From: Spirochaetales bacterium Spiro_12 | Lineage (GTDB): Bacteria > Spirochaetota > Spirochaetia > Treponematales > Rectinemataceae | Assembly: GCA_001603165.1 (NCBI GenBank) | Contig: LVBN01000133.1 | Span: 1-64,000 of the forward strand | Direction of reading: 5' to 3' | Length of the DNA: 64,000 bases | Part shown: in pieces, positions 14,610 to 60,534 of the stretch | Numbering within the stretch: the first letter of the stretch is position 1 | Layout of the letters: the number at the start of each line of letters is the position of its first letter | Made by a program: the position numbers and the translations under genes | Notes under the pieces: model-generated | Database searches by the model: none | Told to the model about the DNA's origin: nothing | Seen by the model: only the letters and a program-made list of their open reading frames with translations

Positions 14610-15799
14610 GAGCATCATTTATGGGAAAGGCCCTTTCGAGGGCCGACAAGCTTACGAAGGATCAGTTGCTCAGTCTGTTCAAGGAACTCCTGGCCTCCAA
14701 CGAGCGACTCGAGGCCGCCCTGCAGTCCATGTTCGACGGCATTCTGGTATGCAACCTGGATCACGTGCCGGTGCTCATAAACAAATCGGCGGAGCGAATC
14801 CTGAGGATCCAGAACCCAGAGAGCCAAGCCCCGTTATGGCAATCTATAGCCGATGAGGAACTCAAGGATTTTTTCTACAAGGCGCTCACATCGGAAGAGA
14901 CTATACTGGGAGAGGAATTCGCCCTGCAGTCCTCCTCGGGCACCAGGATCATCGCCATAAGCCTTTCGGCCCTCCTCTCGGAAGACAAAATCGCAGGAAC
15001 GATCATCCATGTGGAGGACATAACCGAAAAGAGGAAAAAGGAGACCCAACTGCGGAGGGCCGAAAGCCTGGCGGCGCTCACCACCCTGGCCGCGGGAGTG
15101 GCACACGAGATCAACAACCCCCTGGGTTCCATATCCATCCGCATCCAACTTTTGGAAAAGCTGCTGAAGAATCCCGAGCCGGATCAGGCCGCGATGACAA
15201 AGCATCTGAGCGTTGTCAAACAGGAGATGGAGCGGCTCAAGCAGATCGTGGTCGATTTCCTTTTCGCCGTGCGCCCGATGGATGTTCAGCTCTTGAGCGA
15301 AAATCCCGGCCCGATAATCCAGGAAGTGGCCGATTTGGTGGAACCCGAGGCGGAGCGCTTCGGCATCGAACTCAAGCTGTCCATCCCCCCCGATCTACCC
15401 AAGCTTCTCATGGATAAGCGACTCATAAAGCAAGCCTTGCTCAACCTCATAAAAAACGCCATGGCGGTGATGCCCCGGGGCGGGAAGCTCGGCATCATCG
15501 CCGAGCTCGGCCAGGACGAACTACGGATTTCCATATCGGATACCGGGACAGGCATTCCCGAGGAGCTGCTCACGAAGATATTCGAACCCTATTTTACGAC
15601 AAAAAAGAGCGGCACGGGCCTCGGGCTCACCATAACCTTCAAAATAATCAAGGAGCACTCCGGCGATATCAGCCTGGAGTCCAAGGAGGGCGCGGGATCC
15701 ATCTTCACGATCCACCTGCCCATTCCCCAAAAAGAGAAAAAATCCCTGCCCGGTTGGGAGGATAAAGCGACACAGGCCGGATCGCAGGCGGAGGAATAG
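14606..15799 (+). CDS. PAS-domain sensor histidine kinase, NtrB/AtoS-like
   Basis: It is a cytoplasmic two-component kinase without obvious membrane segments. The 397-residue product has a helical start, a PAS domain (about residues 30-140; SMFDGILVCNLDHVPVLIN), the dimerisation box LAAGVAHEINNPLGSISIRI with the phospho-accepting His at about 167, and an ATPase domain with N box (LLNLIKNAMAVMPRGG), G1 (ISDTGTGIPEELLTKIFEPY) and G2 (GTGLGLTITFKIIKEHSG). It overlaps holB by four bases and ends next to the start of its response regulator. Input signal unknown. Confidence 0.92.
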   Translation: MRASFMGKALSRADKLTKDQLLSLFKELLASNERLEAALQSMFDGILVCNLDHVPVLINKSAERILRIQNPESQAPLWQSIADEELKDFFYKALTSEETILGEEFALQSSSGTRIIAISLSALLSEDKIAGTIIHVEDITEKRKKETQLRRAESLAALTTLAAGVAHEINNPLGSISIRIQLLEKLLKNPEPDQAAMTKHLSVVKQEMERLKQIVVDFLFAVRPMDVQLLSENPGPIIQEVADLVEPEAERFGIELKLSIPPDLPKLLMDKRLIKQALLNLIKNAMAVMPRGGKLGIIAELGQDELRISISDTGTGIPEELLTKIFEPYFTTKKSGTGLGLTITFKIIKEHSGDISLESKEGAGSIFTIHLPIPQKEKKSLPGWEDKATQAGSQAEE

Positions 15800-17164
15800 A
15801 TGCAGTCCACGATTCTCATCGTCGACGACGAAAAAAACATACGGGATGGCCTGGCGGAGGCCTTCGCCCTGGAAGGCTACGCCACTTTGACAGCCCAGGA
15901 CGGGCAGGAAGCCCAGAATATTCTGGATGATCACTATGTGGATCTGGTCGTGACGGACCTGAAAATGCCCAAGGTTTCGGGCATGGAGCTTCTGCAGTTC
16001 ATCAAGCGTCGCTGGCAGAATATTCCGGTCATCATAATCACCGCCCACGGGGATATCAGCGAGGCGGTGGCGGCCATGCAATACGGAGCCCTGGAATTCA
16101 TCACCAAGCCCCTGGACCTGGATCATCTGCTCAAGCTTACGAAGAACGCCCTGGAAATCCGCGAACTCTCCATAAAGAACCAGGAACTGCGGGAGGAGGT
16201 CCTCGCCCAGCAGCGCATAAGCTCCATCATCGGCAAGAGCCCGGCGATGCGCAAAATCTTCGACCTGGTGCGAAAGGTCGCCCCCACAAAAGCCTCGGTT
16301 CTCATCACCGGCGAATCGGGGGTGGGCAAGGAGCTCATCGCCGACGCCATCCACAACCTTTCGCCCCGGCGGGACAAACCTCTGATCAAGGTCCATTGCG
16401 CCGCCCTGGCCGAAAGTCTTTTGGAAAGCGAACTTTTCGGTCATGAAAAGGGGGCCTTTACCGGCGCCCAGACCCGTAAGCGCGGGCGATTCGAGATGGC
16501 GGATACCGGAAGCCTCTTCCTGGACGAGATCGGCGAGATCAACCAGAACGTCCAGATCAAGATACTCAGGGTGCTTCAGGAACGGAAGTTCGAACGGGTG
16601 GGCGGAGAATCGACCCTGGAAGTGGATGTGCGGTTTATCGCCGCCACCAATAAGGATCTCAAGCTCGAAATCGAGGAAGGTCGATTCAGGGAAGATCTCT
16701 ACTACAGGCTCAACGTGGTGAATATTCACGTCCCTCCCTTAAGGGAGCGGCGTGAGGACATTCCCCTTCTGGCGGCCACTTTTCTGCACGAGTTTTCCCA
16801 GGAAAACGCAAAGGAAATCGAAGGTTTCGAAACCAGGGCCAAGCAGGCCCTTTTCGCCTACGACTGGCCCGGCAACGTTCGCGAACTTCGCAATTGCATC
16901 GAAAGCGCGGTCGTTATGGCTTCGGGCCGTTTTATCGTTATGGAGGATCTGCCTCCCGGTCCCCGTTCCACCCAGGAAAAAAAGGAAATCCACATCCCCG
17001 CCCTGTCCAGCCTTCAGGAAGCGGAAAAAATCCTCATCGCCGAAACCCTGGCCATGCTGGGTTGGAATAAGACGAAGACCGCGGAGGTCCTCAAGATAGG
17101 TCGCAAGACCCTTTATCAAAAAATCGACGAGTACGGGATCGCCCAGGCTGCCGAACAGGCCTAG
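15800..17164 (+). CDS. sigma-54-dependent response regulator, NtrC/AtoC family
   Basis: It activates sigma-54 promoters when phosphorylated by the kinase encoded just upstream. The 454-residue product has a receiver domain (residues 1-120; phospho-acceptor Asp about 53 in VTDLKMPKVSG, Lys in ITKPLDLDHLL), a AAA+ domain (Walker A GESGVGKELIADAIH near 172, the sigma-54 contact loop GAFTGA near 218, Walker B GSLFLDEIGE), and a C-terminal Fis-like helix-turn-helix (KTKTAEVLKIGRKTLYQKI). The intact GAFTGA loop implies that the organism uses sigma-54. The targets are not visible here. Confidence 0.94.
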   Translation: MQSTILIVDDEKNIRDGLAEAFALEGYATLTAQDGQEAQNILDDHYVDLVVTDLKMPKVSGMELLQFIKRRWQNIPVIIITAHGDISEAVAAMQYGALEFITKPLDLDHLLKLTKNALEIRELSIKNQELREEVLAQQRISSIIGKSPAMRKIFDLVRKVAPTKASVLITGESGVGKELIADAIHNLSPRRDKPLIKVHCAALAESLLESELFGHEKGAFTGAQTRKRGRFEMADTGSLFLDEIGEINQNVQIKILRVLQERKFERVGGESTLEVDVRFIAATNKDLKLEIEEGRFREDLYYRLNVVNIHVPPLRERREDIPLLAATFLHEFSQENAKEIEGFETRAKQALFAYDWPGNVRELRNCIESAVVMASGRFIVMEDLPPGPRSTQEKKEIHIPALSSLQEAEKILIAETLAMLGWNKTKTAEVLKIGRKTLYQKIDEYGIAQAAEQA

Positions 17165-46869: not shown

Positions 46870-49098
46870 CTATCCGCGTTGTTTCGAAGTCTCTCTCTTT
46901 CTGAGTATTATCAGGTCATTCTGATATGCTTTGGGCGTCTTCCCCGTCGTTTTCTTGAACAGCAGGAAAAAGTATTGTGAATTCTCAAGACCAATCTTCC
47001 GAGGGATGTCCTTTATCAGGCCGTTGGGATCGGCAAGATACTCTTTAGCCTTTTGAATCCTCAACGCATTAACTTCATCCATCAGGGAATGACCCCGCCC
47101 TTGTCTGTAAATTCGAGACAGGTACGCAGGCGACATCTTGAAGACATCGGCGACCGACTTAGTGGAAATCTGCATATCGGTGTAGTTTTGGGCGAGGTAT
47201 TCGAAAATCCCATGGATCGTATCTTTCTTGCTTGTCCGCTGCATCTGCTGGACATTGTCGGTGATTTTGTGAAAAAGATCATCCATCAGTCTATTCAGTT
47301 CATTCATATCGTCCAGACTGTCGATCATCATCTGATAAGCCATGCAAGATTCCTCGTATGTCGAATCAAGCACTTTATAATCAAAGGCAAGCTTGAGTAT
47401 GGCATTTGCGATGTTTATCAGCGCAATGTTGACAGTCGAATACTGTTTGTCCTCCAGTTCATGAACAAACAAATTCCAGGTTTCTGCCGCCTTTGAATAG
47501 AATCCCTTCTTCAGAAATCCCACTACCGCAGCCGATTTTTCCGAAAGCGGGGCCATTACATGCCTTCTCTGCGGCTGGTCCTTCAAGCCAATCAGCTTTT
47601 TCCCGGGATGCAGAAATCTGAGTTGCCAGGTCTCCCTGAGTTTCTGGAACGTTTCAGGGAGCAAAGACCAGTCTCTGATTTCTTCGGAGTAAATGAGAAG
47701 CATGTCCGGGTTTTTTTGGACGAGCTCGTTCCGTACTTGTATTTCCTGATCCTGGCTCATGGGCTGGAGGAAAAGGATAGTGTAGGAATCTATCCGCACC
47801 GTTTCGCAATACGGGATTTTCTCCTGGATTTCCTCAATATTAAGCAATCTTTCCTTGTTGTTTAACAGATACAGCGTGACCGGAAAGTTTATGGCTATCT
47901 GAAGGTGGTAGGTTTCAAGGTTGAAATCGGGCATATCGATGGACTTCTTTCCCAGAAGCAAGTCCTTGAGGATCTCGCTTTTTATCATGGGTCCCAGGAA
48001 TTCCCGGCTGTCATGTTCCACAATAAGCTGGTCAAGGTTCCTGATAATCTGGTCGGGATTCTCATTTCCGTTGCCGCTGATCGCCTTGGAAATCTTTTGT
48101 GAAATCTTTCTGTATGGAACATAGACGCGATTCGCTATGAGAAGGGATACTGCCACAAGAATAAGGATTATGACGGAAATGATGATAAGAGTACGGTTGC
48201 GTGAATGCAGCAATGCAGGAAAGGCCTCTTCGTATGCCAGGGTTTTTGCATAGAGCCAGTTGTGCTCACCCATAGATGAATAAAAACAGAGCATTTTTTC
48301 CCCGGCGGCGCTGGGGAATGCGAAATAGCCGCTGGCATTGTCATTCCCGTTTTCCGCCAGGATTCTGGTAATCAGTGTCCGCCTGATACTTTCTTCCAAG
48401 GAATCCTTGGAGGCAATCAGAACTCCTTCGCCGTTCATGATGAACGCCTGATTCTGAAAATCACTGCCGAAATACAACCTGGTGAAGGCCGATGCCTTCA
48501 GGTTAAGAAGAATCGCGTTGGTATCCGGCGCCCCGTCCGAACTCGTTTCGAAGAACATAAACGAATAAATGGCCGAATCATCCGAACCGCTGAACAGGGA
48601 TGTTTCCCGGGGAATCATAACCAGTCGTTGCTCGCTTCTACGTTCACGAAGCATTTGTACCGCGTCCTTGTCCCTGAAGTGCTCGGCATTGTCGTTGACC
48701 GCCCCATACTGCGCGGTACTGTAAATATAGTCCTGCTTGCCGTTATAGATGTAGATCGAATCAATCAGGATGGTCGAGGCGGTGATATCGTTTATCCGTC
48801 TCATTCCTTCGATGAATTCGAAGTTGGAAATCTTCTCGCTTTTCCTCAGTAGCGTTACGGCTGAATCGTAGAAGAGCTGGTTTGTGATACTGATCAGGAT
48901 TCCATCGGCGAATTTTGTGGTTGAGCTGACCTGGGAGGCAAATTCCTCGTTCTGCTTTGCGAGGGACGAGAGCAGCGATTCCTGAAACTGGCCATAGGAA
49001 ATAGCCATGAGAATCAGAAAAATGAAAAACATTCCTGTCAGCGAACCGGTGAAGACCAACGACATGGATAATTTTATTCTGGGTTTCCCTTTTGGCAT
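46870..49098 (-). CDS. membrane-bound AraC-family regulator with extracellular sensor
   Basis: A one-component transmembrane regulator. The 742-residue product has a membrane segment at about residues 13-35, a roughly 265-residue extracytoplasmic sensor (Cache-like by position), a second membrane segment at about 304-326, a long cytoplasmic linker, and a C-terminal AraC DNA-binding domain (ISTKSVADVFKMSPAYLSRI near 650, then GLENSQYFFLLFKKTTGKTP near 705). GGAG lies six bases upstream of ATG 49098. It is divergent from the transporter operon and likely activates it in response to an external ligand. Base composition is clearly lower in GC than clpB. Confidence 0.85.
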   Translation of the reverse strand: MPKGKPRIKLSMSLVFTGSLTGMFFIFLILMAISYGQFQESLLSSLAKQNEEFASQVSSTTKFADGILISITNQLFYDSAVTLLRKSEKISNFEFIEGMRRINDITASTILIDSIYIYNGKQDYIYSTAQYGAVNDNAEHFRDKDAVQMLRERRSEQRLVMIPRETSLFSGSDDSAIYSFMFFETSSDGAPDTNAILLNLKASAFTRLYFGSDFQNQAFIMNGEGVLIASKDSLEESIRRTLITRILAENGNDNASGYFAFPSAAGEKMLCFYSSMGEHNWLYAKTLAYEEAFPALLHSRNRTLIIISVIILILVAVSLLIANRVYVPYRKISQKISKAISGNGNENPDQIIRNLDQLIVEHDSREFLGPMIKSEILKDLLLGKKSIDMPDFNLETYHLQIAINFPVTLYLLNNKERLLNIEEIQEKIPYCETVRIDSYTILFLQPMSQDQEIQVRNELVQKNPDMLLIYSEEIRDWSLLPETFQKLRETWQLRFLHPGKKLIGLKDQPQRRHVMAPLSEKSAAVVGFLKKGFYSKAAETWNLFVHELEDKQYSTVNIALINIANAILKLAFDYKVLDSTYEESCMAYQMMIDSLDDMNELNRLMDDLFHKITDNVQQMQRTSKKDTIHGIFEYLAQNYTDMQISTKSVADVFKMSPAYLSRIYRQGRGHSLMDEVNALRIQKAKEYLADPNGLIKDIPRKIGLENSQYFFLLFKKTTGKTPKAYQNDLIILRKRETSKQRG

Positions 49099-49284: not shown

Positions 49285-50298
49285 ATGAAAAGGTTAATTA
49301 TTGTTTTGTTGCTCATCTCGGCTTTGCTGTTACCGGCGTTTTCCGCCGGTGCTGACGCATCATACAGTGGAAAGGTTATGCTGTATTCCTCGACCGGCGA
49401 GGATGTCGTAATCGCTCTCAAGAATGCTTTTCAGGCAAAGTATCCGAATGTCAAACTGGATTACTATTCCGCCACTTCCGGCAAGTGCGTCACAAAACTC
49501 TCGACGGAATTCCAGTCCAAGTCCGTAACTTGCGATCTCGCCTGGCTCGCGGATCCCTCGGCGATGATCAACCTCAAGGCTGGCAATCACCTTGTCCAGT
49601 ACCTGTCTCCATTCGCGGCAGGCGTGGACCCCAAGTTCAAGGACGCCGAAGGCTACTATACCGGGGCTCGTTTGTTGATCATGGGCATTACGTTTAGCAC
49701 GACATCGTGTTCGGACAAGGAAGCCCCTTACAACTGGGACGGGCTTCTCGCCCCGAATTTCAACAAGCAGTTGATCATGACAGACCCGACCGGTTCGGGT
49801 TCGACAAAAGCGCTTGTCTATGCGATGACCCGCAATCCCAAATACGGCTGGGACTACTTTAAAAAGTTGGGCGAGATGGGCACGGAGCTTCAATCGAGTT
49901 CGGGTGCGACAAACAACGCTGTCGCAGCCGGTTCGTACAAGGTAGCCTTCGGCGTTGATTACAATACCAAAAACCTTATGGCTGAAGGTTCTCCGATCGG
50001 CTGGCATGATACCAAGGATATTGTCGCCGTGCCTTGTCCGATCGCAATTCCGGTCGGAGCTCCGCACGAAAAGCTTGCGAAGCTTCTGTATGACTTCATT
50101 CTGGATCCGAACGGCGGCCAGAAGCTGCTTACGCAGTACAATATCACGCCAATCGTCGACGGCGTCGAACTTCCTGCCGGAATGCTGACCGCCACCGAAG
50201 TAGCTTCAAAAGCGCTTCCGATCGATTGGATCGATCTCGCCAAAGTCAGCAACAAGCTTCTTGACCAGTTTGACTCGTACTTCAAGAAACAAAAGTAA
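49285..50298 (+). CDS. ABC importer substrate-binding protein, ferric/AEP/sugar-phosphate class
   Basis: The 337-residue product has a signal peptide (residues 1-24, AFSAGA/DAS) without a lipobox Cys, then a type II binding-protein fold: SGKVMLYSSTGEDVVIALKN near 29, DLAWLADPSAMINLKAGN near 84, DPTGSGSTKALVYAM near 167, SSSGATNNAVAAGSYKVAFG near 200. This family covers ferric-ion proteins and proteins binding phosphorylated ligands. The adjacent tyrosine pair that binds iron in FbpA-type proteins is not seen; the equivalent area reads GVDYNTKNL. The Ser/Thr-rich SSSGAT and GSGST loops would suit a phosphate or phosphonate. AAGGAGG is upstream of the ATG. Confidence 0.85.
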   Translation: MKRLIIVLLLISALLLPAFSAGADASYSGKVMLYSSTGEDVVIALKNAFQAKYPNVKLDYYSATSGKCVTKLSTEFQSKSVTCDLAWLADPSAMINLKAGNHLVQYLSPFAAGVDPKFKDAEGYYTGARLLIMGITFSTTSCSDKEAPYNWDGLLAPNFNKQLIMTDPTGSGSTKALVYAMTRNPKYGWDYFKKLGEMGTELQSSSGATNNAVAAGSYKVAFGVDYNTKNLMAEGSPIGWHDTKDIVAVPCPIAIPVGAPHEKLAKLLYDFILDPNGGQKLLTQYNITPIVDGVELPAGMLTATEVASKALPIDWIDLAKVSNKLLDQFDSYFKKQK

Positions 50299-50367: not shown

Positions 50368-51438
50368 GTGGAAAAAGTCGAACTGGAAGGTATTTGCGTA
50401 AGCTATGGTGAGCATATGGTCCTCAGGGATCTCTCGCTGAAGATCGAACCGGGCCAGATCATCGGCATCGTAGGTCCCTCGGGTTGCGGAAAGACCACCA
50501 TCGCCAGGGCAATCTGCGGTTTCATCAAGCCGCAACAGGGAACGATAAAAATTGACGGAAAGACCATGTTCAGTCACAAAGACAGGGTCGACATCCCTCC
50601 CGAACAAAGGCATATCGGTGTGGTGTTTCAGGATTATGCCATCTGGCCACATCTCAGCGTCTACGACAACATCGCATATCCGCTGAAAAAGCGCGGGTTG
50701 CCAAAGGAAGAGATAAGCCCTCGGGTACACTATGCCCTGGAACAGGTCAACATGGTGGCTTACGAGAAGTATATGCCTTCCCAACTTTCCGGCGGACAGC
50801 AGCAGAGAGTCGCGATCGCGCGAGCTCTGACATCATCCAGCGATTTTCTCATCATGGATGAACCGATTACGAACCTCGACGCCAAGCTCCGCGAGCAGAT
50901 GCTTGTCGAAATACGCATACTGCAGCAAAGGCTGGGTACCACGATAATCTACATCACGCATGATCAGGAAGCCGCGATGCAGTTGTGCGACAAGATAGTG
51001 ATCCTTGCACCCGATGGGTCGATCGCCCAGATTGGATCCGATGAGGAAATCATCAGGAATCCCGCAAACCGGTTTGTCTTTCAGTTCATAGGGGTATCAA
51101 ACTTCATCCCTGTGGTGATCGACGACGGCAAAGCATTCTTTGACCTTGAAAAGAAAATTCCATACAAATCCCATATTCCCGGGAAAATGACGGGAACAAA
51201 GGCGATGCTGGGTATCAGGCCGATGGATATCGTATTTGATGAGGACAGTCCCGTACGCGCGACCGTTGCGCAGGCGATTTTCCTGGGCAATATGTATAAC
51301 TATTTTGTCCGGCTTCCGGGAATGGAAATCCGGGTCCAGCAGATCGCCATTTCCGAAAACGCGAAATCCTATTCGGAGGGACAGGAGGTTGGGCTTGCTT
51401 TTCTCGAGGAAAGATATTTTGAAAGGGAGGATGCGTGA
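50368..51438 (+). CDS. ABC importer ATPase 1
   Basis: The 356-residue product has Walker A VGPSGCGKTTIARAICG near residue 36, the Q-loop region FQDYAIWPHLSVYDNIAYPL, signature LSGGQQQRVAIARAL near 137, Walker B FLIMDEPITNLDAK and the switch His in ITHDQEAAM. About 110 residues after the core form a TOBE-type domain. GTG start with GGGGGTGA upstream. It overlaps the permease gene by four bases (51435-51438). Confidence 0.93.
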   Translation: MEKVELEGICVSYGEHMVLRDLSLKIEPGQIIGIVGPSGCGKTTIARAICGFIKPQQGTIKIDGKTMFSHKDRVDIPPEQRHIGVVFQDYAIWPHLSVYDNIAYPLKKRGLPKEEISPRVHYALEQVNMVAYEKYMPSQLSGGQQQRVAIARALTSSSDFLIMDEPITNLDAKLREQMLVEIRILQQRLGTTIIYITHDQEAAMQLCDKIVILAPDGSIAQIGSDEEIIRNPANRFVFQFIGVSNFIPVVIDDGKAFFDLEKKIPYKSHIPGKMTGTKAMLGIRPMDIVFDEDSPVRATVAQAIFLGNMYNYFVRLPGMEIRVQQIAISENAKSYSEGQEVGLAFLEERYFEREDA

Positions 51439-53162
51439 TGTTTTCCAGAGCCATAAACCGTGATCTGGCACATCTTGAGGGCAAAGGGGGCTTTTCCCTT
51501 GACCGATTGATGATCATTCTCTGTTACGTCGCCCTGATCACCGTGGTCATCCTTCCCGTATTCATGATTCTCTATTACGCGTTCTGGGACGGAACAAAGA
51601 TTGACATTGCCATGTTCAAGCAGGTCATATTCCAGAAAAGCAACATCCGCTCCATGTGGAACACCTTGGTGATAGGAGTTTTCTCAACCGCCCTCGCCAC
51701 CGCGGTCGGAGTGTTCTTCGCCTGGCTTTTAGGACGGAGCGACATCCCCATGAAGGGCTTGATGAAGTTCCTGTTCTCCATTCCTTTCATGATCCCGCCG
51801 TTTCTCGCCGCGATGTCATGGGACATGATGTTCTCGGGCCGCGGAGGATATGTGAACAAAGCCCTGATGTCTCTTTTCAATCTGACGAAGGCTCCGTTCA
51901 ATATCAACAGTGTGGCCGGTATCATTGTTATTGAAGTCGTCTACTACTTCCCCTTCGTCTACATGCAGGTCGTCAGCGCACTCGAGCGCATGGACCCCAC
52001 CCTTGAGGAAAGCGCGAGAATAGCCGGAGCCAGCCAGCTGTATGTAATCAGAAGGATTACTCTTCCCCTTACTATTCCCGCTATTTCGTCCGGGATGCTT
52101 CTGGTGCTCATAACTTCTTTGTCGAATTACGGTATCCCGGCGATGCTGGGGTATTCCCAGAGTATTTTCACATTGCCCACGATGATCGTCGAACTGATGA
52201 ACCGTGCCGGAGGAAGTTTCGAGGGCATCAGACAGTCAGCCGCCCTCTCCATCGTTCTGGTGTTCATCGTCTCCATCGCACTTCTGGTGCAGAGACGTCT
52301 TCTGACCCACGGGCGATACGACATTATCAAAGGAAAATCCATGCGCCCCATGCTCATCAAGCTCAGGGGGGCCAAGTATCCGCTTCTTGCGTTCTCGCTG
52401 CTGTTTCTGAGCCTTATTGTCGTTGCCCCCATCGTCATGATCATCCTGGTCAGCTTTGTGAAAGCATATGGTCTGCCGTTCCTTGCCAAGAACCTTACGC
52501 TGGCCAATTTCCGCAGAATCTTCGTGGGTAACATCATGGTCCGGGATTCGGTGAAAAATTCGCTGTTTCTGGCATTCTCGGCAGCTTCCTTCTGCCTGCT
52601 TCTGGGAACGATGCTTGCCTATGTCATCTACAAGGTAAAACCGAAGGGAGGCACTGCCCTTGAAATGATGGCTGTTCTTCCCTATTCCTTACCCGGAACC
52701 GTCATGGCCATCGGGTGTATTCTTGCCTGGTCGGGAGCCTTCTTCGGGATCACGTTGTACAACACCATTTGGATTATCCTTGTCGCCTACATCGCAAGGT
52801 ACCTGTCGTATGTGCTCAAATCCAGTTCCGCCGCATTGCAACAGGTCCACGGTTCGCTTGAGGAGGCTGCGAGGTCCTGCGGGGCTTCGCACATGCAGAC
52901 GCTCAAGGACGTTACCCTGCCCTTGATCAAGCCTGCCATGATTTCAGGGTTCTTTTTGGTATTTCTTCCCTGTATGAGGGAACTGACAACGTCAATCCTT
53001 CTTTACGGACCCAAAAGCAGGACGCTGGGGGTCGCCATCTACCAGTTGAGAATCAACGGTCAGATAGCTCCCGCGGCAGCCCTTTCGGTGGTCACGATCA
53101 CGCTGATCATTATCTGCAACAACATTGTCAAGGCTATCACCAGAGATAAAAAGAGAGGATGA
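51435..53162 (+). CDS. ABC importer permease, two fused transmembrane domains
   Basis: The 575-residue product has about twelve membrane segments in two similar halves, each with its own ATPase-contact loop: EESARIAGASQLYVIRRITL near residue 195 and EEAARSCGASHMQTLKDVTL near 476. This fused form is typical of ferric and 2-aminoethylphosphonate importers (SfuB/ThiP type). Start is GTG 51435 or the adjoining ATG 51438. Confidence 0.92.
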   Translation: MMFSRAINRDLAHLEGKGGFSLDRLMIILCYVALITVVILPVFMILYYAFWDGTKIDIAMFKQVIFQKSNIRSMWNTLVIGVFSTALATAVGVFFAWLLGRSDIPMKGLMKFLFSIPFMIPPFLAAMSWDMMFSGRGGYVNKALMSLFNLTKAPFNINSVAGIIVIEVVYYFPFVYMQVVSALERMDPTLEESARIAGASQLYVIRRITLPLTIPAISSGMLLVLITSLSNYGIPAMLGYSQSIFTLPTMIVELMNRAGGSFEGIRQSAALSIVLVFIVSIALLVQRRLLTHGRYDIIKGKSMRPMLIKLRGAKYPLLAFSLLFLSLIVVAPIVMIILVSFVKAYGLPFLAKNLTLANFRRIFVGNIMVRDSVKNSLFLAFSAASFCLLLGTMLAYVIYKVKPKGGTALEMMAVLPYSLPGTVMAIGCILAWSGAFFGITLYNTIWIILVAYIARYLSYVLKSSSAALQQVHGSLEEAARSCGASHMQTLKDVTLPLIKPAMISGFFLVFLPCMRELTTSILLYGPKSRTLGVAIYQLRINGQIAPAAALSVVTITLIIICNNIVKAITRDKKRG

Positions 53163-53163
53163 C

Positions 53164-54267
53164 ATGAACCAGATAGTTCTTGAACATGTGACAAAGTCAT
53201 TTACCACAAAATCCTTGGGAACGGTTGTCGCGGTCAGGGATTTCAACCTCTCCGTGAAAAAGGGCGAGTGTTTCTCCTTCCTCGGTCCCTCGGGCTGCGG
53301 AAAGACCACCACGCTTCGCATGATCGCTGGTTTCGAAGACCTCTCCGAAGGTTCGATCTATCTCGGCGGCAGGCTTGTTTCGGACAAGAGGAAAAATATC
53401 TATCTTCCACCGGAAAAGCGGGAATTGGGAATGGTTTTCCAAGCCTTTGCCGTATGGCCTCATCTGAATGTCTATGAGAACGTGGCCTTCCCTCTGAAGG
53501 TAAAAAAGCGCCCGCACTCAGAGATAAAAAAGCGTGTAGCGCTGGCCCTTCACCACTGCGACCTTGACGGACTTGAAAAAGTTTATCCTTCCGACCTTTC
53601 CGGCGGTCAGCAGCAAAGAATTGCCCTGGCCAGAGCGATAGTGGTCAATCCCGATGTCATGCTCCTCGATGAGCCGCTTTCAAATCTCGACCCACATCTG
53701 CGTGAATCGATGCGCTTTGAAATCAAAAGGCTTCAGAAAGAATTCGGATTTACCATCATTTTCGTCACCCACGATCAGGCGGAGGCCATGGCGCTTTCCG
53801 ACCGTATGCTGGTGATGGATATGGGAAATATCCAGCAGATCGGAACTCCGCAGGAATTGTATCATAAGCCGGTCAATCGTTTTGTCCACAGCTTCCTCGG
53901 ACAGTCCAATTTCACTGATGTTGTAATCAGGGACGGAAAAGCCTTTTTAAAAGAAGACGAGTCCAACTTGCTGTTCTCCGGGACTTCATTGGATCTTAAA
54001 GGTGATTATGTTATGGCCACAAGACCAAACGCGATCGACCTCAACAGACAGGACGGCTATAAGACGACAATCCTCAAGAGAACCTCAAAGACGGATTTCA
54101 TGGAGTATCTGGTATCCGTCGGCAAAGGCTCCATCATGGTCCAAACCCCGCATAGGAACTTTTTCAGGGCAGGCGACCCGTGCTTTATCAAGATAAAGGA
54201 TCCTGCATGGTATAAGCCTGAGAAAAAGGATATTGAAGAAGAACGTGAAAGACGAAATACAATCTAA
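53164..54267 (+). CDS. ABC importer ATPase 2
   Basis: The 367-residue product is a second ATPase of the same class, not a copy: Walker A GPSGCGKTTTLRMIAGFEDL near residue 38, FQAFAVWPHLNVYENVAFPL, signature LSGGQQQRIALARAIV, Walker B VMLLDEPLSNLDPH, HDQAEAMALSDRM, and a C-terminal TOBE part. ATG 53164 is used, with GAGAGG upstream, directly after the permease stop. Two different ATPases with one fused permease suggest a heterodimeric motor. Confidence 0.93.
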   Translation: MNQIVLEHVTKSFTTKSLGTVVAVRDFNLSVKKGECFSFLGPSGCGKTTTLRMIAGFEDLSEGSIYLGGRLVSDKRKNIYLPPEKRELGMVFQAFAVWPHLNVYENVAFPLKVKKRPHSEIKKRVALALHHCDLDGLEKVYPSDLSGGQQQRIALARAIVVNPDVMLLDEPLSNLDPHLRESMRFEIKRLQKEFGFTIIFVTHDQAEAMALSDRMLVMDMGNIQQIGTPQELYHKPVNRFVHSFLGQSNFTDVVIRDGKAFLKEDESNLLFSGTSLDLKGDYVMATRPNAIDLNRQDGYKTTILKRTSKTDFMEYLVSVGKGSIMVQTPHRNFFRAGDPCFIKIKDPAWYKPEKKDIEEERERRNTI

Positions 54268-54325: not shown

Positions 54326-54350
54326 AAAACATGCGCCGATGGCCGGCATC
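54324..54350 (-). terminator. possible terminator of the GntR-mutase operon
   Basis: On the minus strand a GC-rich hairpin (GATGCCGGCCATCGGCGCAT, 54350-54331, with a two-base bulge) overlaps the mutase stop codon and is followed by six T after one G/T base (54329-54324). Confidence 0.45.
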
Positions 54351-55911
54351 AAAAATGTATGCCTTCGCCTGATACGAGCCCTTCATAAGCCTTTTTCGTG
54401 GTATCGAGATAATTCCCGCTCCTGTCGAGCAGCAAGCCTCTTCCCATGGCGCTCACTATCACCGCGCTGCTATCCTCGCCGAGAAAATCCCGCAGGGTTT
54501 CAAGCAGCGCGGGAGCGCCCCGGGCGGGAGCGCTCCTGCCGTCCAGGACCAGATGAATTCTGATCCCCCGTATTCCGCCGCTTTCCATGTGTTTCACCAC
54601 CGCCGCGCCTTCTCTCATATTCCCATGCGAGCTTTTTTCCGACAACATCAGGACCACATGGGGCCTGACTTTTTCCTTACGACATTTTTCCACGATTTGG
54701 ATCAGCGTCTCATTACGGCGCAAGTCCCCGTTTCCCACCGCGGTGGATATTCTCAATTCATCCTGGGGGATAACCCTTCCGCACCCGATAGTCAGATGCC
54801 CCGTCTCCGAATTTCCCGAACGCCCTTCCGGGAGGCCGACGCTCAGCCCTGATGCCGTCAGGGGCAGGAAAACGCCTGCAGAAGTCAGCCTGTCGAACCA
54901 GGGAGTGGAGGCTGCTTTTATTGGATTAACCCGCGGATCATCGTCGCCCAGCCCCCATCCGTCCAAAATCACGAGCAGGCATTTCTGAGGTTTGCCGATC
55001 CGTCGGATCAGGGACCGTCCTGTCATCTCCCGGGGTTTTTCCAATCCCAGAATATGCAAGACCGTCGGCGCCACATCGGCCAGGCTGCATTCTTTTGATC
55101 GCACATCGTCTCCGAGCAGCGCCTCCATATTGTAGACATTGAACAGAACCTTGGAGAGGGTATGCTCGACGCTCGGGCTGCCATCCTCATGCTTCGTCAC
55201 TTCGAGCAAGCCGTGATCCGCCGTTACGACCACGGCGAATCCTTCCTTTACCGCGTTTTCGCAAATAATACCCAGCGCTTTATCCACATCTTCCGCGCAT
55301 CGGACGTTAAGTTGCCAGTTGTCGATGTGTCCGATAATATCCCCTGCCGCGAGATTCACGAGAATGAACGAATACTTACCGGCACTCATCGCCTCGACGG
55401 TCTTCATTGCCACTTCCCGGGTCCTGGTTCCCGGGTTAGCTTCAATTTCGCCATATTTCGGGCTTTTCTCGACGATCCGATCTTCTCCGTCGAAAGCCTG
55501 GGTATTCCTTCCGTTGAAGAAGTACGTCACATGAGAGTATTTTTCCGATTCGGCGATCCTGAGCTGCTTTAGATGACTTTCGCTTATCACCTCTCCCAGC
55601 GTGTTCTTGGGCCGAATCGTTGGGAATACCGACTTGAGATGGGCGAATTTCTGCTGATACTGAATTAAAGAAATAAATGACAGATTCGGTAGCGGCTTTA
55701 CGGGAAAAGGCTTGAAATCGGCCTCGGTTATAGCTTCGACGATCTGGGCTTGCCGGTCCCCTCGGCGCAAGCAAAAAAGAAGTACATCCCTGTCCTGTAT
55801 CGCGCCCATATATGCATGGTCGTACCTGACCAAGGGAGGCATCCAATAGTCCTTGTCACCCGCAGCGTATCGTGCGGAAAGGGCGGATACTAAGCGATCT
55901 ATCTCTATCAA
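54349..55911 (-). CDS. circularly permuted cofactor-independent phosphoglycerate mutase-like protein
   Basis: All parts of a normal iPGM are present but in rotated order. Residues 1-302 match what is normally the C-terminal part: RGDR (50-53), LKQLRIAESEKYSHVTYFF (K124), AAGDIIGH (D191, H195), TADHGL (D232, H233), VEHT (H250), DVAPTVLHILGLEKPREMTG. After a linker RRIGKPQ, residues 311-520 match the usual N-terminal part: VILDGWG (D317), GNSETGHL (S368), SSHGN (H429), LDGRSAP (R459), GRGLLLDR (R491, R497), ending KKAYEGLVSGEGIHF, where the normal protein would continue into residue 1 here. All seven metal ligands are kept; the usual D154 is Ser460. Length 520 equals a full enzyme. TTG start, with AAGGAGG five bases upstream overlapping the gntR stop. 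Activity could be on phosphoglycerate or another phosphorylated or phosphonate substrate. Confidence 0.85.
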   Translation of the reverse strand: MIEIDRLVSALSARYAAGDKDYWMPPLVRYDHAYMGAIQDRDVLLFCLRRGDRQAQIVEAITEADFKPFPVKPLPNLSFISLIQYQQKFAHLKSVFPTIRPKNTLGEVISESHLKQLRIAESEKYSHVTYFFNGRNTQAFDGEDRIVEKSPKYGEIEANPGTRTREVAMKTVEAMSAGKYSFILVNLAAGDIIGHIDNWQLNVRCAEDVDKALGIICENAVKEGFAVVVTADHGLLEVTKHEDGSPSVEHTLSKVLFNVYNMEALLGDDVRSKECSLADVAPTVLHILGLEKPREMTGRSLIRRIGKPQKCLLVILDGWGLGDDDPRVNPIKAASTPWFDRLTSAGVFLPLTASGLSVGLPEGRSGNSETGHLTIGCGRVIPQDELRISTAVGNGDLRRNETLIQIVEKCRKEKVRPHVVLMLSEKSSHGNMREGAAVVKHMESGGIRGIRIHLVLDGRSAPARGAPALLETLRDFLGEDSSAVIVSAMGRGLLLDRSGNYLDTTKKAYEGLVSGEGIHF

Positions 55912-55921
55912 AACATCCTCC

Positions 55922-56677
55922 TTACTTGTTCAGGGTTCTCAATTGCGTCAGGTCGACGTACATTTTGCATTTATCCCCCCGGATGAGCGAGCGAGCGTAG
56001 ATGATCGCCTCGCCGCCCTGGCTGAGGGAGGTGCGCTCGTTCGACAAGGCGAGCGCTCCAGGCTTTTGGTCGAGAATTTGAGCGTCCGCCGATTCGAGAA
56101 AGACCGGCGTGAACTTTTCCACGCTTTTTTTCAGCTCGATGGAATATGCCAACTTTATGATCTCGTACATTGGCCTTGTCAGGTCGGCTGTTTCTATCTT
56201 CCCGTACTTCCCCGCGTCCACATAAACCTGCTCGATGAGCATAGGTTCGTCGTTCGCTTTTTTAAACCGGGTAATCTTAAGCGATGGCGCCCCTATGGGA
56301 ATTGCCAGGGCGTCCGCTACGACTCGGTTAGCCGGCTGTCTCTCCACACCGAGGAGCACACAAGAATATTTGATACCTATCGCCTTCATCCGCGCGTTCA
56401 GCATGACATCCGCCGAAATTTCCGTATACTCCACCCTACCCGCGGCAAATTGCGGCGCAGCAACGAACGTGCCTTTGCCTTGCATCGCATACACCTTGCC
56501 TTCATGGGTGAGTTCCTGGATGGCTTGTTTCGCGGTGGTCGTACTGATGCCGTACATAGCGCACAACGCTCTGATTGATGGGATCGCGCTGTGCGCTTTC
56601 CATTCGCCGTCGTCGATTTTTTCTCTAAGTATTTCCTTTAACCTGTAGTAGAGTGGAGAAGCGGTATCTTTAAGCAT
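55922..56677 (-). CDS. GntR-family regulator with UTRA ligand domain (HutC/PhnF-like)
   Basis: The 251-residue product has a winged helix-turn-helix (residues about 8-75; IPSIRALCAMYGISTTTAKQ, then VYAMQGKGTFVA) and a UTRA domain (about 95-245; LKITRFKKANDEPMLIEQVY). UTRA regulators sense small molecules, including phosphonates in PhnF and sugar phosphates in others. It forms an operon with the permuted mutase, whose ribosome site overlaps its stop codon. A dyad downstream of its promoter suggests autoregulation. Confidence 0.9.
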   Translation of the reverse strand: MLKDTASPLYYRLKEILREKIDDGEWKAHSAIPSIRALCAMYGISTTTAKQAIQELTHEGKVYAMQGKGTFVAAPQFAAGRVEYTEISADVMLNARMKAIGIKYSCVLLGVERQPANRVVADALAIPIGAPSLKITRFKKANDEPMLIEQVYVDAGKYGKIETADLTRPMYEIIKLAYSIELKKSVEKFTPVFLESADAQILDQKPGALALSNERTSLSQGGEAIIYARSLIRGDKCKMYVDLTQLRTLNK

Positions 56678-56748: not shown

Positions 56749-56777
56749 ACTATAAGACTGGTCCTTCACGCTGTCAA
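56749..56777 (-). promoter_or_regulatory. promoter of the gntR-mutase operon
   Basis: TTGACA (56772-56777) and TATAGT (56749-56754) are separated by exactly 17 bases on the minus strand. This is a near-consensus sigma-70 promoter, expected to start near 56742. Confidence 0.85.
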
Positions 56778-59499: not shown

Positions 59500-60534
59500 A
59501 TGAGCGACGTTTCCCCCTTGTCCGAAACGCTTGAGCGAAAGGGGCTTCTTCCCTTCGCCGCGCCATCCTATTGGCTCAACCTTGCGTCCGAGGATTACAG
59601 AACCTGCCGGCGGGACGAAAACGGCGTACCCCTGGATCCTATTCTTGCCCAAGCGCTGCCTTCCGCGGCGGAGCTGATCGATGCTCCCTTGGAATCCGAG
59701 GATCCCCTTCGCGAGAAGGAGCACTCCCCCCTGCCCAGGCTCGTGCACCAGTATTCATCCCGGCTTCTCATCAGAGTTACGGGAGCTTGCCCCCTCTATT
59801 GCCGCCATTGCTTTCGTCGCAACCTTCTGCCTTCGGAGAGGGAATTCATCTCTTCCAAGGAGATACTTCAGGCCCAAGGCTATTTGAAAGAACATCCTGA
59901 GCTGCGGGAGGTACTCATCTCCGGGGGAGACCCCTTGAGCGTTCCCACCGAAATCCTTGAAACCCTTTTCGCCAGGTTGCGGGAGGCAAGACCCGGAATC
60001 TTTTTACGGCTCTGCACCAGGGCGCCGGTGAGCCTGCCGGAACGTATCGACGAGGCCCTTTTGTCCATGCTGCGAAAGTACAAGCCCTTGCGCCTCGTTA
60101 TCCAGGCCAATCATCCGAAAGAACTGTCCGGGCTCTTTCTGGAAAAAATCGAAAAGGTACTCGCCGCCGGCATTCCCGTGAGAAGCCAGACCGTGCTTTT
60201 AAAGGGCGTGAACGATGATACGAATACCCTTGAAACCCTGTTTTCCGGCTTATGTCGTGCGGGGGTTGATCCATACTATCTCTTCCAGGGCGATCTGGCC
60301 AGGGGCTCGTCCCACTTCAGGGTGCCCCTCTCCCGGGGGCTGGCGATGTACGAAGAGCTGAGGACCCGGCTCTCGGGCCTCGAAATGCCCCGTTACGCCG
60401 TGGATGCCCCCGACGGCGCGGGCAAGCTGTATCTTCCCGAAAGCGTCGTCTCGCGACAGGAGGATGAGCAGGGAGCCTACTGGCTACTCCGGGCTCCCGA
60501 CGGATCCTTGCATCGCTATCCCGAGGAAGCTTAA
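59500..60534 (+). CDS. KamA-family radical SAM aminomutase, EpmB-like
   Basis: The family interconverts lysine and beta-lysine using SAM, a 4Fe-4S cluster and PLP. EpmB makes (R)-beta-lysine to modify EF-P. The 344-residue product has the cluster motif C97-x3-C101-x2-C104 (GACPLYCRHCFRR), EVLISGGDPLSVPTEILE, RAPVSLPERIDEALL, and the PLP Lys at about 309 (APDGAGKLYLPE). Length fits EpmB better than the longer lysine 2,3-aminomutase. No efp gene is seen here. Confidence 0.82.
   Translation: MSDVSPLSETLERKGLLPFAAPSYWLNLASEDYRTCRRDENGVPLDPILAQALPSAAELIDAPLESEDPLREKEHSPLPRLVHQYSSRLLIRVTGACPLYCRHCFRRNLLPSEREFISSKEILQAQGYLKEHPELREVLISGGDPLSVPTEILETLFARLREARPGIFLRLCTRAPVSLPERIDEALLSMLRKYKPLRLVIQANHPKELSGLFLEKIEKVLAAGIPVRSQTVLLKGVNDDTNTLETLFSGLCRAGVDPYYLFQGDLARGSSHFRVPLSRGLAMYEELRTRLSGLEMPRYAVDAPDGAGKLYLPESVVSRQEDEQGAYWLLRAPDGSLHRYPEEA

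Follow-up and report, generated by a model that had tools for sequence, protein, structure and literature searches.

A single unbroken minus-strand reading frame (54349-55911) in the window, the analysed stretch of 64,000 nucleotides of contig LVBN01000133.1 from Spirochaetales bacterium Spiro_12, encodes a circularly permuted iPGM-like protein. The permutation, its single origin and the selection acting on the product can be regarded as virtually certain. The protein is best read, with moderate confidence, as a naturally permuted phosphomutase or phosphatase of the iPGM branch that handles an imported anionic phosphoester. The gene and its surroundings contain the following features:

54349..55911, minus strand: whole ORF with stop codon of the permuted iPGM-like protein, 520 aa (profile and PDB matches)
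55911, minus strand: TTG start codon of the permuted gene, GGAGG 5 nt ahead
55917..55921, minus strand: GGAGG ribosome-binding site of the permuted gene, 5 nt 5′ of the TTG
55006..55911, minus strand: segment 1 (residues 1-302), C-terminal part of iPGM, about 217-509 of 1EJJ
54982..55005, minus strand: linker RRIGKPQK (residues 303-310) bridging the ancestral C- and N-termini (1EJJ alignment)
54352..54981, minus strand: segment 2 (residues 311-520), N-terminal part of iPGM, 6-210 of 1EJJ
54808..54810, minus strand: codon of Ser368, the equivalent of the catalytic Ser62
54532..54534, minus strand: codon of Ser460, at the Asp154 position of normal iPGM
54334..54348, minus strand: terminator-like hairpin with T run, directly 3′ of the stop codon of the permuted gene
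55922..56677, minus strand: GntR/UTRA regulator, on the 5′ side of the permuted gene and separated from it by 10 nt (profile matches)
56749..56777, minus strand: promoter-like site upstream of the GntR gene with 11 of 12 consensus matches (identified by consensus alone; hits in total no more numerous than in shuffled sequences)

The GntR/UTRA gene and the permuted gene are probably cotranscribed.

The reversed order is supported by three kinds of matches. The NCBIfam profile TIGR01307 scores the protein with 389 bits (cut-off 330.65) in two out-of-order stretches, residues 7-302 corresponding to profile positions 213-504 and the N-terminal part following afterwards. In Pfam, Metalloenzyme is matched at residues 90-292 and positions 1-129 of iPGM_N at residues 388-517, i.e., the two domains are hit in reversed order, and iPGM_N itself is split by the new ends. 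A phmmer search against the PDB aligned residues 303-517 with 23-235 of 5KGL and residues 8-305 with 244-539. These matches bear out the initial annotation, which had placed the C-terminal part first (1-302) and the N-terminal part after it (311-520). In the numbering of 1EJJ, residue 302 corresponds to 509, residue 311 to 6 and residue 517 to 210. The new ends thus fall between about 210 and 217, replacing roughly 211-216, and lie inside the phosphotransferase domain as had been proposed; the linker, given before as seven residues, consists of eight. In iPGM, the N-terminal part precedes the C-terminal part and the transferase domain is inserted in the phosphatase domain. The permuted protein departs from this arrangement: in chain order, it is the phosphatase domain that lies within the transferase domain.

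The same domain order and breakpoint were found in 12 further genomes. Together, the 13 permuted members comprise the window's genome, one genome of the same family (G020), six genomes of family f12 within the window's class and five Erysipelotrichales, one of which is the goat-rumen MAG JAFSUN010000003.1. Start and end of the protein are located at the same place in all members with readable ends. The permuted order is rare: it was present in 1 of 393 genomes drawn evenly from the window's phylum, in 4 of 395 genomes of its class and in 5 of 316 Erysipelotrichales genomes, and in draws of about 390 genomes from the phylum and the class of the Erysipelotrichales the query genome was alone in having it. 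For the tree, the halves were set back in normal order, in the alignment alone. The 13 permuted proteins then grouped in a single clade, with 100/100 support, apart from the 23 normal-order enzymes included, as did the first seven members in an earlier tree. The dN/dS values of five permuted pairs (0.03-0.12) indicate purifying selection. A single ancient permutation is compatible with the tree, and with shared breakpoint and low dN/dS the data are most simply explained by one origin and subsequent selection. A chimera of the assembly, or two broken pieces of iPGM fused in frame by chance, as the fragmentation of the host assembly into 139 contigs might suggest, has a negligible probability, since 13 genomes agree in order and breakpoint, the clade is single and dN/dS lies far below 1. 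Misassembly, pseudogene and fragment fusion were ruled out on these grounds, and the gene is real, as the initial annotation had taken it to be. The window's copy is the most diverged member, with a branch of 2.1 changes per column. This may reflect drift or additional specialisation, and the substrate of this copy may not be exactly that of the other members.

Mobile and viral sequences were searched as well. Six iPGM relatives on viral contigs included none identified as permuted, and a BFVD search gave no match. On plasmids, 44 records match; among the 10 matches listed, all are in two pieces, which may stand in either order.

Structure prediction with AlphaFold2 resulted in a pLDDT of 82.9 and a pTM of 0.81 with seven natural permuted sequences, and in 86.2 and 0.84 with 12. 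All 22 significant PDB fold matches of the models in Foldseek are iPGMs, in agreement with the proposed fold; the alignments span about 270-310 columns only, since Foldseek aligns in chain order. Among these matches there was no solved structure with permuted order.

The seven metal ligands, including the equivalent of the catalytic Ser62, are present in all 13 permuted members, and in the window's protein they are the residues named initially (D317, S368, D191, H195, D232, H233, H250). Beyond the metal ligands and the serine, seven of eight substrate-contact residues are kept, the equivalents of His123, Arg153, Arg185, Arg191, Arg261, Arg264 and Lys336 being found in 13 of 13 members. The eighth, Asp154 in Geobacillus numbering, which is annotated as a substrate contact in GpmI, is Asp in 74 of 74 normal-order enzymes and Ser in all permuted ones. 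This exchange (Ser460 in the window's protein) had been overlooked in the initial annotation, and a literature search found no paper on the role of Asp154. The columns separating the two groups are largely located in the same substrate loops, which are remodelled around this position: from normal to permuted, GGVHSH becomes K-S-S-H-G, DGRD becomes DGRS, FNFRxDRA becomes CCRRGERE and MDR becomes LDR. A Gly beside His123 is thereby changed to Lys and a Phe beside Arg261 to Arg, so that one negative charge of the pocket is lost and two positive side chains are gained nearby, partly offset by an added Glu. The loss of Asp154 together with the new Lys and Arg suggests a substrate other than, or perhaps more anionic than, 2PG/3PG.

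The permuted gene is convergent with a four-gene importer in the window:

49285..50298, plus strand: substrate-binding protein of the importer
50368..51438, plus strand: importer ATPase 1
51435..53162, plus strand: fused permease of the importer; identity to the full-length permeases at other permuted loci 77-83%
53125..54267, plus strand: importer ATPase 2
46870..49098, minus strand: regulator of the AraC type, N-terminus sensor-like, oriented divergently to the importer; a 35% homologue lies at the same place in locus L135
46500..56750: stretch of lower G + C content, mostly 45-54%, compared with about 59-62% in most flanking intervals

Same-genus relatives (G027, G028) are without the permuted gene and without a close importer. 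This absence and the lower G + C content indicate that the block from 46.5 to 56.7 kb was probably acquired as a unit.

The importer stays under every specific family cut-off, including those of NCBIfam for PhnS2 (68 vs. 392.75 bits), PhnT2 (293 and 315 vs. 457.7 bits) and PhnU2 (195 vs. 593.25 bits), and the GntR/UTRA regulator is below the PhnF and PhnR cut-offs (79 vs. 156.8 and 79 vs. 296.75 bits). The closest structural relatives of the importer include organophosphate binders of the AfuA and P5PA types. In gene layout and best family matches it resembles the 2-aminoethylphosphonate-type PhnS2/T2/U2 and the AfuABC-type importers, but it has two ATPase genes and scores well below the equivalog cut-offs. 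Catabolism of 2-aminoethylphosphonate was considered but is not supported, as no family cut-off was reached and no phosphonate catabolic gene was recognised next to the permuted gene. Further along the window (59500-60534), a KamA-family radical SAM gene (344 aa) scores over TIGR00238 and under all specific aminomutase cut-offs.

Sharing of the importer neighbour, a point raised by the initial annotation, holds for eight of the 13 permuted loci, the window's included (further L032, L099, L100, L101, L102, L135 and L136), and fails for the remaining five. In these other importer loci, importer and permuted gene are codirectional, the permuted gene lying downstream. Compared with L032, L099, L100, L101, L102 and L135, the window's importer is 53-73% identical in the binding protein, 63-65% in ATPase 1, 77-83% in the full-length permeases and 71-78% in ATPase 2; the L136 contig carries the permease in part only. 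In G020, the permuted gene is located behind a DASS anion symporter (1 of 13 loci). In genus g241, it is the last gene in an operon of HAD hydrolases (4 of 13 loci), beside PfkB and LacI, and an ABC permease is present where the contig reaches (L137, L166). These operons contain 4-5 paralogous HAD-IA hydrolases (L137:10331-12632 and 15629-16381, L165, L166). Because the neighbours differ by lineage (ABC importer, DASS, HAD cluster), the loci may not share one substrate.

In two phyla, but not in the window, the module is accompanied by a metallo-beta-lactamase protein of about 400 aa that resembles the beta-CASP type (TIGR03675, score under the cut-off):

L032:1574-2812, L099:769-1968, L100:2899-4098, L101:8843-10063, L102:3096-4316 and L135:17816-19024: metallo-beta-lactamase genes

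Further importers of the same permease family were seen at L129:6344-8850 and at about 5582-9486 of L130, with a histidine-phosphatase gene directly after the one in L129.

One permutation event joined the ancestral ends by a short linker in the phosphatase domain and opened new ends in a phosphotransferase-domain loop, and the gene was then inherited or transferred together with the importer module. For the reaction, the following course can be proposed. The Arg/Lys cage would bind an imported anionic phosphomonoester, and its phosphoryl group would be taken over by Ser368, placed between two metal ions, and passed to another substrate hydroxyl (mutase) or to water (phosphatase). The role would lie in uptake and catabolism of organophosphates and not in glycolysis. 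A role with imported organophosphates is likely, and a substrate other than 2PG/3PG is probable with less assurance. It is likewise fairly probable that this is a new non-PGM enzyme, i.e., that one permutation founded a subfamily with a rebuilt pocket for a phosphoester or phosphonate that is imported and probably more anionic, and that importer and enzyme spread between phyla as a module.

The enzyme could also be a phosphatase only, in which without Asp154 water hydrolyses the phosphoserine and phosphate is freed from imported esters. The phosphatase domain with its Ser and two metals is retained in full and HAD hydrolases adjoin in g241, but all Arg residues of the transferase domain, less needed by a plain phosphatase, are conserved under selection, and this reading is possible but doubtful. 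Somewhat less probable still is a true permuted phosphoglycerate mutase that tolerates D154S and interconverts imported 2PG/3PG for growth on phosphoglycerates. The Arg/Lys cage is otherwise PGM-like, and Ser at position 154 might still permit 2PG/3PG mutase activity; all other PGM substrate residues are kept, the TIGR01307 score exceeds the cut-off and anion importers adjoin the permuted gene. However, the sole change at an invariant substrate contact is universal in the clade, the nearby loops gained Lys and Arg, and a normal iPGM is already present in the window's genome. The label "complete phosphoglycerate mutase" of the initial annotation therefore stands for a complete permuted protein of the iPGM fold under selection, whereas PGM function is not established, considering D154S, the changed loops, the separate normal iPGM and the neighbours.

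A glycolytic replacement, in which the permuted enzyme would act as PGM where a lineage has no normal iPGM, is very improbable. The idea was raised by three g241 genomes lacking normal iPGM; five genomes carrying the permuted gene show no normal-order iPGM (G418, G694, G1254, G1414, G1419), and within family f12 the permuted gene is associated with the lack of normal iPGM (Fisher p = 0.003, uncorrected for kinship). One of the five, G1254, nevertheless has a full dPGM (432 bits, cut-off 305; the analysis covered 1.68 Mb of its roughly 2.2 Mb), and the window's genome has a separate normal-order iPGM (393 bits, over the family cut-off). With these enzymes present, glycolysis in both genomes would be independent of the permuted gene, and judged by gene content the permuted enzyme is auxiliary to glycolysis at least there.

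Compared with known iPGM (GpmI/iPGM, TIGR01307; PDB 1EJJ, 1O98, 5KGN), the permuted protein has the same two-domain fold parts, metal ligands, catalytic Ser, seven substrate residues and a similar length, but differs in its ends in the transferase domain, the Asp154 to Ser exchange, the remodelled substrate loops and the importer/HAD neighbourhood. ApgM, phosphopentomutase and PhpG of the alkaline-phosphatase superfamily are not known to have a permuted domain order; the metal-binding phosphatase core matches them over a short stretch, far below the cut-offs. A literature search combining phosphoglycerate mutase or alkaline phosphatase superfamily with permutation gave nothing relevant by title and abstract, in line with the earlier remark that no described permuted iPGM was known. 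As the order-blind TIGR01307 score is over its cut-off, automatic annotation would probably name the permuted genes ordinary glycolytic PGMs.

In the permuted clade, a core metabolic enzyme has undergone circular permutation in nature with reversal of its domain nesting, and the product has been maintained by selection in two lineages far apart. How the hinge-coupled two-domain mechanism of iPGM depends on chain connectivity can be examined in this natural test case, and D154S with the loop changes provides a defined residue switch for studying the origin of mutase specificity. The permutation may plausibly have arisen by tandem duplication and subsequent trimming. As an unrelated illustration of duplication, a Falkowbacteria MAG (L057:7033-10184) carries two iPGM genes of normal order as direct tandem neighbours, with 33 bp between them.
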